DNA from: a virus
Virus record (IMG/VR): IMGVR_UViG_3300028844_004552
Location: 1-64,000 of that record
Direction: 5' to 3' (one strand)
DNA: 64,000 nt
Each line of letters begins with the position of its first letter. The stretch's first letter is position 1. A program made the position numbers and the translations under genes. Positions 3,035-45,091 of the stretch are shown in pieces. The notes beneath the pieces are model-generated. The model was given only the letters and a program-made list of their open reading frames with translations. It did not search any database and was not told the DNA's origin.

Positions 3035-4000
3035 ATGAGTAGTAGATTAGATGCGATGATGAACCAATACAAAACGAACAGCACATCATCAAAAAGTAAA
3101 GGGTCAAAGAAATTTGACAAAAACAATTATTTTGCAACATTCTTAGAGGATGGTGTATTATCAGCACAAAGACATGTGAGAATTGTAGAACCTAAGGGTG
3201 AAACAGAATCTCCATTTGTGGAAATTATGGGACATAAATCACAAGTTGAAGGACAATGGAAAACATTCATTTGCCCTAAACATGAGAAAGGTGAAAAATG
3301 TCCATTCTGTGAAGCAAGAGAATTACTTCTTGCAACAGGTGATGAAGCTGATAGAAAAGAAGCTATCCAATTTTCTGCAAAGAAAATGTATGTAGTTAAA
3401 TTAATCGATAGAGATAACCCAGACCATGGTGTTAAATTCTGGAGAATTAATCACCACTACAAGCAACAAGGTGTGATGGATAAAATCAATGCTGGAAACA
3501 CGACTTTACCAGCTGGTGAAGACCCAATTTCTACAGCAAATGGTAGAGATATCATTATTACAATTACTGGTGACGGTAAGAAGTCTGCGGTAACGGGAGT
3601 TAACTACGCAATGGCTCAGACACCACTAAGTGAAGATACTGAACAATCAAACGCTTGGTTAGCAAGTGCACATGAGAAGTCATGGGAAGATGTTTATTCA
3701 GTTAAACCTTATGAATTCTTAGAAATCATTGTTAGAGGTGGAGTACCATACTGGCAAAAGGATGATTCTGAAAAAGGTGGAGGGTATGTTGATAAAGCGT
3801 CTCTTACTGAAACTTCTAATACAGAAGAACCTAAGGAAGAATTAGATAGTGAATTATCTATGGGAGTTGCTAATGCTAATGCTGATGCTAACCCACCAAG
3901 AACCTTAACACCAGAAAGTGCGATACCAGAAAATACTGGCGCAGCAGCAACTACTGATGCGGCAACTGATGATGCTGAGGATGACGATTTACCATTCTAA
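3035..4000 (+). CDS. 32: gp32-like single-stranded DNA-binding protein
   Basis: 321 aa, close to T4 gp32 (301). A zinc-binding cluster is visible at C80, H83, C89 and C92 (CPKH...CPFC), in the position of the gp32 core zinc site. The protein coats single-stranded DNA and organises recombination and replication proteins. After about residue 255 it becomes a disordered acidic and Ala-rich tail ending in DDDLPF, which resembles the partner-binding tip of bacterial SSB rather than the T4 gp32 tail. It is followed by uvsX, a nuclease and the gp41-type helicase, so the replication core is clustered. Two tandem host-type promoters precede it. Confidence 0.9.
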   Translation: MSSRLDAMMNQYKTNSTSSKSKGSKKFDKNNYFATFLEDGVLSAQRHVRIVEPKGETESPFVEIMGHKSQVEGQWKTFICPKHEKGEKCPFCEARELLLATGDEADRKEAIQFSAKKMYVVKLIDRDNPDHGVKFWRINHHYKQQGVMDKINAGNTTLPAGEDPISTANGRDIIITITGDGKKSAVTGVNYAMAQTPLSEDTEQSNAWLASAHEKSWEDVYSVKPYEFLEIIVRGGVPYWQKDDSEKGGGYVDKASLTETSNTEEPKEELDSELSMGVANANADANPPRTLTPESAIPENTGAAATTDAATDDAEDDDLPF

Positions 4001-38072: not shown

Positions 38073-38307
38073 AAAAATAATAAAAGACCAATTTATTGGT
38101 GATAAATACAGTTTAACCAAAGTTGGTGAAATAACCAAACAGATGGTTGGTAATATTAGAGTTGACATAATTTATAAGGATAAGTATGACAATGCATGGA
38201 TTGAATCAACTCTAGTTGGGCATAATCTTATGAGTGAAAATAAAACTTTACCTATGGTATTTCTAGGTAAAGATATAATAGATAAAATTATTGAGATTTA
38301 TGGTTAA
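38065..38307 (+). CDS. Small hypothetical protein, 80 aa
   Basis: A short basic protein of unknown family (MSKKIIKDQFIGDKYSLTKVGEI). It overlaps both neighbours by 8 bases, so it is co-translated with the nuclease and gp47. It may be a small partner of these enzymes, but nothing in its sequence shows this. Confidence 0.6.
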   Translation: MSKKIIKDQFIGDKYSLTKVGEITKQMVGNIRVDIIYKDKYDNAWIESTLVGHNLMSENKTLPMVFLGKDIIDKIIEIYG

Positions 38308-39115
38308 AAAGGTAATACATATTGCCGACATACATATCAGAACATTTAGAATGCATGATGTTTATGGTGAGGTATTTAAACAATTCCTAAAGGAGATTAG
38401 AGTACTTGTAAAGGACTTTGAACGAGAAGAGGTAAGAATTGTTATTGTAGGTGATTTAGTTCATCAGAAGATAACTATATCAAATGAGTTACTAACACTA
38501 GGTACTTGGTTCTTACAGAAATTAGAGAAGATTGCACCATTAAGGATTGTAGCTGGTAATCATGATTTCATAGAGAACAATAAAGATAGGCTTGATAGTA
38601 TCACACCCATGGTTAGTCTATTGGGTGATTTAGACATTCAATATTATAAGGGTGATAGTGCTTGCTATGAGGACGATAATATTGTTTGGTGTAACTATTC
38701 AATATTTGATGAAGAAGCTAGACCAGATATTGAAAAGGCTAGAATTGACTTCGGTCCAGATAAGTCTTATATTGGTCTTTATCATGCACCAGTTGTTGGG
38801 GCATCTACAGATATTGGTTATGAATTTGACCATGGTACAACACTTGAACACTTTGAGGGTTGTGATATAGTTATGTTAGGTGATATCCATAAGAGACAAT
38901 CGTGGGTACATAAAGACATCCCAATTGCATATCCATCATCACTTATACAACAGAATTTTGGTGAAACAGTATCAAAGCATGGTTACCTATGGTGGGATAT
39001 AGCAGATAAAACATTTGAAGAATTTGATATCCCAACAAACTATGGGTTCTATCAATTTAAAATAAAGTCATTAGATGACTTAGAAAATAACGAAGAAAAG
39101 TTAACAAATTTATAA
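38300..39115 (+). CDS. 47: gp47-like Mre11/SbcD nuclease subunit
   Basis: 271 aa (T4 gp47 is 339). The calcineurin-type phosphoesterase motifs are all present in order: IADIHIR (D and H), GDLVHQK, GNHDF, YHAPV and GDIHKRQ. With gp46 it forms the nuclease complex that resects double-strand ends for phage recombination and degrades DNA ends. I use the ATG at 38300 rather than an upstream TTG; it overlaps the preceding stop. gp46 lies two genes downstream. Confidence 0.88.
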   Translation: MVKKVIHIADIHIRTFRMHDVYGEVFKQFLKEIRVLVKDFEREEVRIVIVGDLVHQKITISNELLTLGTWFLQKLEKIAPLRIVAGNHDFIENNKDRLDSITPMVSLLGDLDIQYYKGDSACYEDDNIVWCNYSIFDEEARPDIEKARIDFGPDKSYIGLYHAPVVGASTDIGYEFDHGTTLEHFEGCDIVMLGDIHKRQSWVHKDIPIAYPSSLIQQNFGETVSKHGYLWWDIADKTFEEFDIPTNYGFYQFKIKSLDDLENNEEKLTNL

Positions 39116-39877: not shown

Positions 39878-42322
39878 ATGGAAGAAGAAAAAACATTGGT
39901 TAAAAAACTATCAATACCAACTAATGCTAAAATTAAAGTTTATTGGGATGATGTACCAGAAAACTACAGCAAGGAGAATAAGGTTTTAGTTAGAAACCAT
40001 TTCGCTACCAAGTATGGTGTTAGCAAGACCAATATAAACGTGGTTTATCGACCAATAAAGATTACTGATAAGGGTGAGACAATCGAAATAAATGGTGCTG
40101 GGATTGACAACATCATGGATACAAGCTACCAACGTGAATTATTCAAAGAGTGGTTAACTAGAGAATCTAAGGATGTTGATTTTAGTCGCCTTATGAAACT
40201 AGATGATAAGGTCAATGCTGAGTTGAATGAATCTGATAATGGTGGTAATCATCGTGAGTGGTCACTTAAGTGGATAATGATGAATGGGTTCTTATGTTTT
40301 GGGGCTAACAACTTTGTATCATTATCTAATCTTGATGGACTTACAATCGTAAATTCATATCCAGAAAATCAAGGGGGTAAGACTACCTTTTCTATTGATG
40401 CATTTAAATTTGTTCTTTACGGTAAGACAACAAAGACCGATAAGAATGAAGAAGTCTTTAATCAATATTGGGACAATAATGACCTAGTTGTTAGAGGTAT
40501 GTTATCAATTATCGATAAAGAGATTATCATTGAAAGAAAGATGACTCGAAAGAAGAAACGTAATGGTGGGTGGAACATAGAGAATAAGTTAAATTTATTT
40601 GAGGTATTACCAGATGGTGAAGAGATTCAAATGAATGATGAGGATGCTAAGGCGACAACAGAAGAGATTAAAAAGGTTGTGGGTGTTGAGGCTGACTTTG
40701 AGTTGGTTACACTTGCAACAGCTAGAAATCTTGATGACCTTGTTGGTCTTACAACTACCGAGAGTGGTAAACTACTCACAAGATTTATTGGGCTTGACCC
40801 AATCGAACGTAAGTCTGAGACATCTAGAAAGATGTATAATGAATTTGCTAAGACCAAGAAATCTAACATGTATGATGAAACTACACTTAGAAATGAAATT
40901 GATGGTTATGATGGAACACCTAATACGGATGATGATTTAGAATGTGAACCAAACGCACCACAAGTTCTACGAGTTTACGGACATACGGAGAAAATTGAAT
41001 TAGCTAATAGAGAAATAATTACCAAAACCAAAGAGCTAACAACCAATGACGCTTTAATAACCAAGTATAATGATGAGAAGGATACACTACTTACTAGTAA
41101 GAAAACCATAGATGCAGAAATCCTAACACTCAATCCATCTAAGTTAAAGGAAGATATTGATGAATTAACAAAGAAGGGTCTTAAGTTAACTGGTGATATT
41201 GAAGGACTTAAAAAGAAGATAAAACCACTACTTGGAATCACATTTGATGAAGATAGACACCAAGATATTGTTGAAGAGGGTGGAACCTTTAAGACTAACT
41301 TAGCGGTCAAGACTGCTGAAATCACTAGACTTAAGAAAGTGGTTGAGGATTTAATAGCTGGTGGTATATGTCAAGCATGTAACAGAGCATTGGATGATAT
41401 TGATAATAGTGCACACATTGCAGAACATAACAAAACTATTAAAACATTAGAAGATGAGGGTAGTATTATTCAAGAGAAAATTAACAAATTGGTTATTGAA
41501 ATAAATTCACTTAACGAACTTAAAGCAAAGGTTGATGAACGACAGAAACTTGAATTGGATAAGGATAGAACTGAAATTGAAGTTGAGTCCCTTAGAACGC
41601 TTATAAAGAGCAAACAAGAAGACCAAAAGAAGTATAGTAATAATCTAGATGGTATTGAGTTCAATAAGGATATCGATACAAAGGTGTCTTTGATTAAGAC
41701 TAAATTAAGTGTGTGTGACCATACTAAGACTGAGTTAACACAAAAGATTGAGCGCACCAAGATGGATATTACTCAAAACGAAATAGCCATAGTTGACAAG
41801 AACAAGATTATTAGTCAAATCAAGAAAGAGGGTGAGGTTGAGAAACTATTCAAGATATATATCGAAATGGTTGGTAAGAAAGGGATAAGTAAATTGGTTC
41901 TTAGGTCAGTCCTACCAATTATTAATTCAGAGGTTCAAAGGTTATTAGATGGTGTTGTTGATTTTGATGTAGAAATATTCATCAACGATAAGAATGATGT
42001 ACAATTTATGTTAATCAAGGATGATGTTGAGAAGTATTTGAAATCTGGTAGTGGTCTTGAGATAACAGCGGCTAGTATTGCACTTAGATGTGTATTAGGT
42101 AAGATGTCATGTCTTCCAATGCCTAACTTCATTACATTCGATGAAGTTCTAGGTAAGGTAGCCAACGTTAACATACCACACATGAAACCATTGTTTGATA
42201 AAATAACAGATATGTATGATACTGTGTTCTTTATCACCCACAACGAGGTAGTGAAGGATTGGGGTGATAATATCATAACAATTAAGAAAGAAAACAATAT
42301 TTCTAGTATTTATGTTAAATAA
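39878..42322 (+). CDS. 46: gp46-like Rad50/SbcC ATPase subunit
   Basis: 814 aa, longer than T4 gp46 (560). A Walker A-type P-loop is near residue 164 (PENQGGKTT, lacking the usual G-x-G-K form). A long coiled coil follows with a zinc-hook CxxC (CQAC) near residue 500, then a second coiled coil, a signature region (SGSGLEITAASIAL) and Walker B (FITFDEVLG), with a switch His in FFITHNE. It pairs with gp47 to process DNA ends. About 130 residues before the ATPase core are unusual and may be an added domain. Confidence 0.87.
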   Translation: MEEEKTLVKKLSIPTNAKIKVYWDDVPENYSKENKVLVRNHFATKYGVSKTNINVVYRPIKITDKGETIEINGAGIDNIMDTSYQRELFKEWLTRESKDVDFSRLMKLDDKVNAELNESDNGGNHREWSLKWIMMNGFLCFGANNFVSLSNLDGLTIVNSYPENQGGKTTFSIDAFKFVLYGKTTKTDKNEEVFNQYWDNNDLVVRGMLSIIDKEIIIERKMTRKKKRNGGWNIENKLNLFEVLPDGEEIQMNDEDAKATTEEIKKVVGVEADFELVTLATARNLDDLVGLTTTESGKLLTRFIGLDPIERKSETSRKMYNEFAKTKKSNMYDETTLRNEIDGYDGTPNTDDDLECEPNAPQVLRVYGHTEKIELANREIITKTKELTTNDALITKYNDEKDTLLTSKKTIDAEILTLNPSKLKEDIDELTKKGLKLTGDIEGLKKKIKPLLGITFDEDRHQDIVEEGGTFKTNLAVKTAEITRLKKVVEDLIAGGICQACNRALDDIDNSAHIAEHNKTIKTLEDEGSIIQEKINKLVIEINSLNELKAKVDERQKLELDKDRTEIEVESLRTLIKSKQEDQKKYSNNLDGIEFNKDIDTKVSLIKTKLSVCDHTKTELTQKIERTKMDITQNEIAIVDKNKIISQIKKEGEVEKLFKIYIEMVGKKGISKLVLRSVLPIINSEVQRLLDGVVDFDVEIFINDKNDVQFMLIKDDVEKYLKSGSGLEITAASIALRCVLGKMSCLPMPNFITFDEVLGKVANVNIPHMKPLFDKITDMYDTVFFITHNEVVKDWGDNIITIKKENNISSIYVK

Positions 42323-42347: not shown

Positions 42348-42355
42348 TATATTTG
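42348..42355 (+). promoter_or_regulatory. Host-type -7 element
   Basis: TATATTTG, 21 bases before the ATG at 42377. No clear TTG is found at the -33 position. Confidence 0.5.
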
Positions 42356-42376: not shown

Positions 42377-42898
42377 ATGAAATTTAGAAATTATTGTATT
42401 GTTGTAATGGGAAAAATGGGTGCTGTCAAAGATGAAATCATCAAGATTGCTGAAACCAAACCTAGATATTTAGATGCTACAGGTATTCTTATCGCAACAT
42501 TCGCTAGTGTCGCTGAACCAGCTGAACTAGAAGAGTTTTTCAAAAGAGATGGACGGTCCTTTTTAATATTTGACCTAAATAAAGAAAATTCAGCATATCA
42601 TTTAGATAACTTAGGTTTTAATACCCATCTATTTGGTGATATATTGGAACGAGAGGAAAAACTTAAGGAGATGTCAGATAAGATTATGCAAGAAATATCT
42701 GGGTCAACCGAACAAAAGGGTAGACGAAGTGCTGTTATCATGGAGCCACAAATAAATATTGAGACCGAAGTGAAGGTCGAAGATTTATCTCCAAAAGAAA
42801 GAGAAGAATTAGTAAACGAAATATTTGACAAAGGTGTTGATAAAATGACGAATTCTGATAAAAAATTACTAGAGAAAATTAGTAATTTTAAACCCTAA
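42377..42898 (+). CDS. Hypothetical protein, 173 aa
   Basis: Unknown family. The first 95 residues look like a small alpha/beta domain (YCIVVMGKMGAVKDEIIKIAE...SFLIFDLNK). The C-terminal 45 residues (LSPKEREELVNEIFDKGVDKMTNSDKKLLEKIS) form a helical motif also seen at the ends of several bacterial proteins. It has its own promoter element and lies just before the sigma factor gene. Confidence 0.65.
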   Translation: MKFRNYCIVVMGKMGAVKDEIIKIAETKPRYLDATGILIATFASVAEPAELEEFFKRDGRSFLIFDLNKENSAYHLDNLGFNTHLFGDILEREEKLKEMSDKIMQEISGSTEQKGRRSAVIMEPQINIETEVKVEDLSPKEREELVNEIFDKGVDKMTNSDKKLLEKISNFKP

Positions 42899-42925
42899 AA
42901 ACCTTTACTTTTGGGGTAAAACTCG

Positions 42926-42933
42926 TATATTTA
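42926..42933 (+). promoter_or_regulatory. -7-like element before the sigma factor gene
   Basis: TATATTTA, with a weak TTTACT 16 bases upstream. It gives a leader of about 40 bases before the ATG at 42977. Confidence 0.5.
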
Positions 42934-42976
42934 TGTGTTTATAGAACACATAAGATTAGAGTATAAAAAATGTTTA

Positions 42977-43753
42977 ATGAGTAAAAATTTTGTAAGTAAC
43001 TATGGAGAAGATTGCATAGGAAAGTATTTTAATGACGTAAGAAATTCATCAGAGCTATTAACCGCAGAACAAGAGGTAGCAATAGCGAATAGAATTAAAG
43101 CTGGTGACAGCAAAGCGATTGACGAATTAGTTAAAGCTAACCTTAAATTCGTAATATCAATAGCTAAAGAATATCAAAATCAAGGATTGGGTTTAAATGA
43201 CCTAATCAACGAAGGTAACTACGGTTTAATCAAAGCCGCTGTCAGATTTGACGCAACTAGAGGTTTTAGATTTATATCATATGCCGTATGGTGGATTAAA
43301 CAATCAATTATTCAAAGTCTTAATGACAATGCTAGAATGATTAGACTTCCAGAGAGAGAAGCGTATATTGGAGAAGTTTTAAATAGTGACGACGAAGAGG
43401 AAGACCTTGAAGTAATATCTACACCAACTGTTAATTCGTTGAACGCAAAAATCAACGAAGAAGGTAGTGAATTGTATGAAATGATTGAAGACACATCAAA
43501 TGAGGAATCGGATTATTACATAGATGCTAAAGTAAAAGAGGAATTAGATAGAATCCTTAGTATATTAAACGAAAGGGAACGAAATATAATTCAATGTTAC
43601 TTCGGTGTGAATACTGAAACTGAATCAATGACACTTGAGGATATTGGTGATAAATACAGTTTAACCAAAGAAAGAATCAGACAAATCAAGGAGAAAACAA
43701 TCAGAAAGATTAGGCATCACTCTAGCTTCTTATTTGAGTTATTAAAGGACTAA
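42977..43753 (+). CDS. RNA polymerase sigma-70 factor lacking domain 3
   Basis: 258 aa from the ATG at 42977 (an upstream GTG at 42935 falls in the promoter and is rejected). Region 1.2/2 is nearly identical in style to the Bacteroidota primary sigma: NLKFVISIAKEYQNQGL, LINEGNYGLIKAA, FRFISYAVWWIKQSI and an RLP motif. Region 4 is intact (MTLEDIGDKYSLTKERIRQIKEKTIRKIRH). The domain 3 helix-turn-helix between them is replaced by a short acidic linker (DDEEEDLE). It lies near gp46/gp47 as T4 gene 55 does, so it may direct host RNA polymerase to phage late promoters. Confidence 0.85.
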   Translation: MSKNFVSNYGEDCIGKYFNDVRNSSELLTAEQEVAIANRIKAGDSKAIDELVKANLKFVISIAKEYQNQGLGLNDLINEGNYGLIKAAVRFDATRGFRFISYAVWWIKQSIIQSLNDNARMIRLPEREAYIGEVLNSDDEEEDLEVISTPTVNSLNAKINEEGSELYEMIEDTSNEESDYYIDAKVKEELDRILSILNERERNIIQCYFGVNTETESMTLEDIGDKYSLTKERIRQIKEKTIRKIRHHSSFLFELLKD

Positions 43754-43790: not shown

Positions 43791-43798
43791 TATTTATT
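43791..43798 (+). promoter_or_regulatory. Late-type promoter motif TATTTATT
   Basis: Ends 3 bases before the ATG at 43802 and directly follows the terminator after the sigma gene. It opens the candidate lysis cassette. Confidence 0.45.
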
Positions 43799-43801
43799 GT
43801 T

Positions 43802-45091
43802 ATGAAAAAAATATTATTGTACTTAGTATTGTTAATGGCATTATCACTAGCTGGTATTGTGGCGTATGTATCGGTTAATGGTCTATTGAAGATTTTTACT
43901 GGTGCTGGGACTGTAGGTCTTATGTTTTTCACAGCTGTTGAGGTTGCTAAGGTTGTTGCAACATCTGTAATCCATACTTATGGTAAAAGGATAGGTTGGT
44001 TCTATAATATATTATTATCATTGAGTATTCTTATCGCCATGGCAATAACATCTATGGGTATTTACGGGTATTTATCATCTTCATACAAGGATAGCTTTGC
44101 TAAGATGGAAAATGTTGATAGTCAAGTAGAATTATTGGAAAGTAAACGAGATGGTTACCAAGACCAATTAGTATTTATTGTGGATGAGAAAGAGACACTT
44201 AATAACACCATTGGTGAGTTAAGTAAAGGTCTTGCAAATAATGTAATCCAATATAGAGACCCAACAACGGGGGAAATCATAACCACAACGTCATCATCAA
44301 CAAGAAGGGCTTTAGAAAAACAATTAGACAATGCAATTATCAGACAATCAAGCGTAAATGCAAAGGCTGATAGTCTTAGCACAATTATATTTGACCTTGA
44401 AAATGAAATACTTGAAACTAAACTAAGTAATGATTCAGCTAGTGAGTTAAGTACATTACAATATTTATCCGACATTACTGGTAAATCTATGGATGAGGTT
44501 ATGAAGTGGTTTATTCTACTTCTAATTATCATAGGTGACCCAATGGCAGTACTATTAGTTATTGTATTCAATAAAGTGGTTAAGAAAGATGAAAATGATG
44601 CTCCAAGTGATGCGGCAAGTGATGCTCCAAAACCAAGAATCCCATCTGAGGATTTATTCGATGTGATGCCATCAACAACACCAATGGAAGAAAATCCAGA
44701 CTCGATGTTTAAATTAGAACCCATTTATGATGCGGTAAATGATGCGCCAAGCGAAGAACCAAGTGAAATTCCAGAAGAGGTTGAGGAAGAAGCGAATAAA
44801 TTAGCTGAAAAACTTAACAGACCTGTTGTTATTAGAGAGGTAACACCAGAAAATATTGATGAGGAACAAATTGAAGAAGTTATTGAAGAGCCAATCGAAG
44901 AGGTTAAGAGGGAACCAATAATCCCAAGAGGAAAGATTATTGAAGAAGACCTTAAGAAGGATAGAGGGTTTTCTGTTGATGTTCCAGAACCACACATAAC
45001 TAGAATTGGTTCGAATAAAGAAGTTTCTGACAGTGAACCTTCGAAGGTTTGGTTTAAGAGAAAAAGGGGTGACGAATTAACAAATGAGTAA
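43802..45091 (+). CDS. Membrane protein with coiled coil, candidate holin or envelope protein
   Basis: 429 aa. Hydrophobic segments lie at about 4-26, 32-55 and 68-92. A soluble heptad-rich region (about 100-225) follows, then another membrane segment (about 232-255) and a long acidic, Pro/Glu-rich cytoplasmic-type tail (DAPSDAASDAPKP..., EEVIEEPIEEV). It overlaps the amidase-like gene by 8 bases. This position and membrane topology suggest a lysis or envelope role, but it is far larger than known holins. Function unproven. Confidence 0.65.
   Translation: MKKILLYLVLLMALSLAGIVAYVSVNGLLKIFTGAGTVGLMFFTAVEVAKVVATSVIHTYGKRIGWFYNILLSLSILIAMAITSMGIYGYLSSSYKDSFAKMENVDSQVELLESKRDGYQDQLVFIVDEKETLNNTIGELSKGLANNVIQYRDPTTGEIITTTSSSTRRALEKQLDNAIIRQSSVNAKADSLSTIIFDLENEILETKLSNDSASELSTLQYLSDITGKSMDEVMKWFILLLIIIGDPMAVLLVIVFNKVVKKDENDAPSDAASDAPKPRIPSEDLFDVMPSTTPMEENPDSMFKLEPIYDAVNDAPSEEPSEIPEEVEEEANKLAEKLNRPVVIREVTPENIDEEQIEEVIEEPIEEVKREPIIPRGKIIEEDLKKDRGFSVDVPEPHITRIGSNKEVSDSEPSKVWFKRKRGDELTNE

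Follow-up and report, generated by a model that had tools for sequence, protein, structure and literature searches.

An FCB-type primary sigma factor with an eroded domain 3 in T4-like phages: descent and possible role in early or middle transcription

Introduction

Why would a phage carry a sigma factor that closely resembles the primary sigma factor of bacteria, and which promoters would that factor read? The question is raised by a gene in IMG/VR record IMGVR_UViG_3300028844_004552, a virus fragment of 73,628 bases whose positions 1 to 64,000 form the stretch considered here (the window, 64,000 nucleotides). A sequence-only reading had proposed that a captured host sigma factor was repurposed for phage late transcription, with the motif TATTTATA as its target.

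The locus and its conservation

Simple open reading frame calls in the record revealed a T4-like gene set comprising single-strand binding protein, UvsX, helicase, ribonucleotide reductase, baseplate wedge, primase, gp47, gp46, tail tube and lysis genes. The single-strand binding protein (window positions 3035-4000) ends in a tail, DDDLPF, that resembles the tail of bacterial SSB. Relatives of the window sigma were found in at least 186 IMG/VR stretches, of which the best 80, with 43-58% identity to it, were analysed. The genes preceding the sigma gene are the following.

38300..39115, + strand: gp47-like gene (SbcD-like), conserved neighbour (phrog_100; synteny)
39878..42322, + strand: gp46-like gene (SbcC-like), conserved neighbour (phrog_77; synteny)
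42377..42898, + strand: orf173, between gp46 and the sigma gene in 34 of the 80 relatives (PHROG search, synteny)

The genes for gp47 and gp46 lie just upstream of the sigma gene, and the proximity that had been likened to that of T4 gene 55 is genuine, as gene 55 is located about 3 kb from gene 47 in T4. In 76 of the 80 best relatives, gp46 is found within 5 kb of the sigma gene, and the order gp47-gp46-sigma-orf429-amidase recurs among them. The product of orf173 matched no known family in the PHROG search.

The sigma protein

The gene runs on the + strand from an ATG at 42977 to a stop at 43753 and encodes 258 amino acids. Its assignment to the sigma factors, made earlier from the letters of the sequence, was borne out in several ways. 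First, Pfam matches above the cut-off were obtained for Sigma70_r1_2 (PF00140, 5e-7), r2 (PF04542, 5e-16) and r4 (PF04545, 7e-15), and no Pfam match was found for Sigma70_r3 (PF04539). Second, in the PHROG search the protein matched phrog_351, "RNA polymerase sigma factor" (5.5e-55), and did not match phrog_234, the gp55 family. Third, an AlphaFold model built from an alignment of 29 relatives contained confidently predicted helices in regions 1.2-2 and in region 4, as well as a short helix at the C-terminus, with residues 122-151 disordered (pLDDT under 50). The best matches of this model in a Foldseek search against the PDB were SigA and RpoS sigma factors; the overall TM-score was low because the linker is unconstrained in the model. 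The protein has the features of a primary-type (group 1/2) sigma factor, with regions 1.2, 2 and 4 present and domain 3 missing. Through regions 2 and 4, it most likely binds the host core polymerase.

42977..43753, + strand: sigma-70 factor gene, primary-type, domain 3 eroded, 258 aa (Pfam, phrog_351, model, 80 relatives)
43016..43108, + strand: region 1.2 (residues 14-44), family-specific residues at 19 and 22 (PF00140, residue comparison)
43127..43336, + strand: region 2 (residues 51-120), predicted core binding and -7 reading (PF04542)
43340..43429, + strand: acidic disordered linker (residues 122-151) replacing domain 3 (pLDDT <50; P125-S153 spacing)
43430..43519, + strand: region 3.2-like stretch (residues 152-181), kept (alignments)
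43556..43717, + strand: region 4 (residues 194-247), reading helix TKERIRQIKEK (PF04545; invariant columns)
43721..43750, + strand: C-terminal tail SSFLFELLKD, acidic LF-type throughout the family, with a function that can only be presumed (tail comparison)

Domain 3 erosion and family-specific residues

Residues were compared after aligning 81 phage copies with 119 cellular sigma factors. The stretch from P125 to S153 spans 27 residues in the window protein, 27-50 in the phages (median 38 in the other phages) and 51-52 in all 119 cellular sigmas. The first domain 3 helix (NVINKISKLKKEIxxFE) is present in close relatives and absent from the window sigma, and the sigma-3.2 stretch SLNAKINEEGSELYEMIED is retained in both. 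As judged from these alignments, erosion of domain 3 is a trend of the whole family and the window protein is its extreme case. The earlier view that domain 3 was exchanged for a short acidic linker holds for the window protein, with its 27 residues predicted to be disordered, but not as a rule for the family. These proteins are a naturally occurring example of a sigma factor of the primary type giving up domain 3.

Positions specific to the family are found in region 1.2 (19 and 22), in region 2.3-2.4 (98, 114, 116 and 118) and in the region-4 helix, where residue 231 is K in 81 of 81 phage copies and R in 113 of 119 cellular sigmas. The changes in regions 1.2 and 2.4 could alter -7 specificity. 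The region-4.2 reading helix is invariant among 29 diverse phages. Beyond region 4, most phage relatives have an acidic tail built around LF/LY, and host tails are more often basic; as a phage-specific signal the tail motif is only suggestive, since a crude test for it is also passed by 20 of 40 host tails.

Compared to the Bacteroidota/FCB primary sigma (RpoD type), the window protein shares regions 1.2, 2, 3.2 and 4 nearly verbatim and differs in its shorter domain 3 (27 versus 51-52 residues), its acidic tail, and K231, N116 and R22 among other residues. When INPHARED matches are ranked by coverage x identity, the best are about 37% identical at most, and therefore no close isolate is known in that collection. 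These RpoD-like sigmas (e.g., that of Microcystis phage MaAM05) are likewise primary-type factors on phage records; domain 3 is near full length in four of the five inspected (L260, L261, L264 and L266), and a jumbo-phage copy (L263) has a shortened domain 3.

Descent from primary sigma factors

A FastTree phylogeny (175 columns) placed the phage sigmas as a single clade (SH-like 0.81) inside the primary sigmas of the FCB group, with SH-like values of 0.76-0.99 at the nodes enclosing it. The stem of the clade is short and its members diverge deeply, and long-branch phage sigmas attach near it. A smaller IQ-TREE maximum-likelihood tree (a topology without support values) gave the same placement with a longer stem. 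These trees, in which the window sigma does not fall far from host primary sigmas, support a primary sigma as the ancestor of its family at the level of the Bacteroidota/FCB superphylum, not of a particular lineage within FCB. The resemblance to the Bacteroidota primary sigma that had been pointed out earlier is evident both in the closely matching regions 1.2, 2, 3.2 and 4 and in this nested position. The capture is best regarded as ancient rather than recent, because the phage sigmas form one clade within the FCB primary sigmas and because the sigma is a core gene adjoining gp46 in 76 of 80 relatives; the trees do not identify a modern Bacteroidota host as the donor.

Two promoter classes

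Two classes of promoter-like sites, assigned by comparison between phages, are present in the gaps of the record. First, TATATTTG occurs 11 times on the + strand of the gaps versus 0.5 expected. At 31 TATATTTG sites in the window record and its closest relative, TTG stands at -23 to -21 (G in 26 of 31), and this host-type class in sigma-carrying phages has the form TTG-N20-TATATTTG. TTG with this spacing to the -7 box is the architecture of Bacteroidota host promoters. Second, the motif TATTTATA singled out by the sequence-only reading is not due to chance: the + strand of the gaps contains 20 copies of TATTTAT, with 3.2 expected (1000 shuffles, largest 10). Each of the seven relative groups with sufficient sequence, all of them carriers of the sigma, shows an excess of it (z 3.6-12.7), and Flavobacterium phage 11b, Cellulophaga phi38:1, Bacteroides B124-14 and crAss001 do not (z -0.8 to 1.1). 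A chance origin was ruled out by the shuffles, the relative groups and these control phages, and TATTTATA is a real, promoter-like motif. No -33 element was found at 75 TATTTAT sites in the window record and its closest relative. A candidate third class was rejected, as there was only a weak CTTTAC excess with no partner box.

42348..42355, + strand: host-type promoter box TATATTTG before orf173 (motif scan)
42925..42934, + strand: promoter-like GTATATTTAT upstream of the sigma gene (motif scan; close relatives have TTGAC..GTATATTTG here)
43791..43797, + strand: late-type promoter box TATTTAT before the next gene at 43802 (motif scan)

The promoter of the sigma gene itself is often TTGACTTTT..GTATATTTG in close relatives, which is host-type, and therefore the host polymerase can make the sigma early. 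Immediately upstream of the gene, most other relatives showed no box of this kind.

A second, gp55-like protein and the comparison with phage immuto

A search with phrog_234 and region 2 brought up a second sigma-2-like protein in relatives, about 240-260 aa long. It is complete in 12 relatives, and the record of the closest relative (G001) begins, at base 1, inside a further copy. The best library match to T4 gp55 has an E value of 5.7e-4 and six of seven members match, a weak but specific signal that suggests a distant relation. The gp55-like gene was not seen within the 73.6-kb window record, a fragment; if the window phage has one, it would lie outside the record. Several group-A records without the gene end near its expected place, as estimated from the distance to the polymerase gene, and G018 and G020, whose contigs stop before or miss that place, were left out as evidence of absence. 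The gp55-like family extends over at least 565 IMG/VR stretches (L276-L286 and L349-L428 among them) of T4-like phages of Bacteroidota and is essentially unannotated. Mel-JY01 is another phage with gp46 and a gp55-like protein.

Flavobacterium phage immuto (NC_055915), a cultured phage with a complete genome, is distantly related and differs in part of its gene content. It encodes a gp55-like protein (E 2e-24), gp118 at 78174-78872, annotated "hypothetical protein", and its complete genome lacks a window-type sigma (best E 0.07). TATTTAT occurs 31 times in the immuto gaps versus 4.4 expected, a 7-fold excess, and precedes 10 of 24 virion/lysis genes versus 2 of 34 others (Fisher p=0.0013, with gene classes hand-picked from the annotation). 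The genes preceded by it include terminase, portal, sheath, tube and tape-measure, and no -33 element was found at the immuto TATTTAT sites either. Thus, TATTTATA promoters are independent of the window-type sigma, and TATTTATA appears to go with the gp55-like gene in the genomes compared. The same reasoning applies to the host-type promoters, which are present in immuto as TTG-N20-TATATTTAGG and are likewise independent of that sigma. The end of their -7 box is often G in sigma-carrying phages (G000-G031 gaps) and A in immuto (27 of 28), a difference that may be host driven or sigma driven.

Role of the sigma factor

In the explanation that we prefer, to which we give about even chances, the phage owns a primary-type sigma for early or middle -33/-7 promoters and leaves late genes to the gp55-like protein. 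The sigma, an old descendant of an FCB primary sigma, would be a core gene of a large T4-like phage clade whose hosts are probably Bacteroidota, judging from promoter type, sigma descent and the relative immuto. It would itself be made early from a host-type promoter and, on the host core polymerase, would direct transcription of early or middle genes from host-type TTG-N20-TAnnTTTG promoters. Late transcription from TATTTATA promoters, which have no -33 element, would be the job of the separate gp55-like protein. The sigma probably still reads a -33 element because its region-4.2 helix is invariant, and this helix, together with the lack of that element at TATTTATA sites, is why we assign it to the -33/-7 class. 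Early or middle timing is favoured because late promoters appear tied to the gp55-like gene. Against this explanation, no promoter class is uniquely tied to the sigma, as immuto has host-type promoters without it, and host RpoD alone could read that class; furthermore, the gp55-like link is weak, immuto is distant, and regions 1.2 and 2.4 are changed.

The role originally proposed, that of a late sigma reading TATTTATA in replacement of gp55, is unlikely. TATTTAT is enriched in all sigma-carrying relative groups tested, the gp46/gp47 neighbourhood is that of gene 55, and the family-specific residues in regions 1.2 and 2.4 could change -7 reading. However, immuto has TATTTATA late promoters without a window-type sigma, TATTTATA lacks a -33 element although region 4 is conserved, and relatives encode a separate gp55-like protein, so that the sigma is not a simple stand-in for gp55. 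Of the sequence-only reading, descent from a primary sigma is supported by the tree, whereas the late role and TATTTATA as the target are not supported.

Alternatively, the sigma could mainly compete with the host sigma for core polymerase and shut down or redirect host genes, and not read phage promoters. In Bacillota, some phage sigmas are known to change host programmes (PMC9429907), sigmas of the primary type are competitors for core, and the absence of a promoter class uniquely tied to the window-type sigma would fit. Competition as the main role is nevertheless decidedly unlikely: throughout the clade the sigma is a core gene in closely conserved gene order, as would be expected of a function essential to the phage, and the DNA-reading residues are kept.

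Very improbable is an unsplit counterpart of T4 gp55 plus gp33, a single chain that would combine region 2, region 4 and an LF-acidic tail on a sliding clamp (phage or host DnaN) and act alongside the gp55-like protein, so that the tail would couple phage transcription to replication: most relative tails end in LF/LY plus acidic residues, somewhat like T4 gp55 (SLDFLYEAND), gp33 (NTLDFLL) and gp43 (ASLDFLFG), and PMC2988020 asks why no fused late-transcription sigma has been found, but host tails pass the crude tail test too, a C-terminus shared with the DNA polymerase was mostly unseen in relatives, the late role itself lacks support, and neither gp33 (phrog_254) nor a clamp, gp45 or DnaN (PF02916, phrog_223, PF02768), was found in relatives, whose records may be incomplete. 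The resemblance to a fused late sigma was kept as a minor point for lack of clamp, gp33 and a late role, and was dropped as the main reading given the gp55-like gene and immuto. The inspected matches among phrog_168 (gp44) candidates were other AAA ATPases.

Comparison with known systems

Compared to T4 gp55, which is likewise phage-encoded near gp46/gp47, the window sigma has region 4 in addition to sigma-2, matches phrog_351 and not phrog_234, and belongs to phages whose relatives carry a separate gp55-like protein. Promoters without a -35 element, as in T4 late transcription, occur in immuto without a window-type sigma, a comparison and not a knock-out. The middle/late cascade of SPO1 (gp28; gp33/gp34), of which gp28 and gp34 are named in PMC9429907, also employs successive phage sigmas on the host core. 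The phage and its sigmas are unrelated, and here a cascade would comprise one primary-type and one gp55-like factor.

The results point to a possible two-sigma system, combining a modified host-type primary sigma and a gp55-like protein, in a widespread, mostly uncultured T4-like clade that probably infects Bacteroidota and whose two clean promoter classes can be read from the sequence. Immuto gp118 and its TATTTATA promoters provide testable targets in a cultured phage. Further region-2 sigma genes are present in some relatives (G009:291293, G024:136791, G016:340471 and 343125, G020:89815, G001:190827). In addition, an 83.8-kb sigma-carrying phage contig (L030, L176, L208) sits in the Prochlorococcus single-cell genome QCKH01000004.
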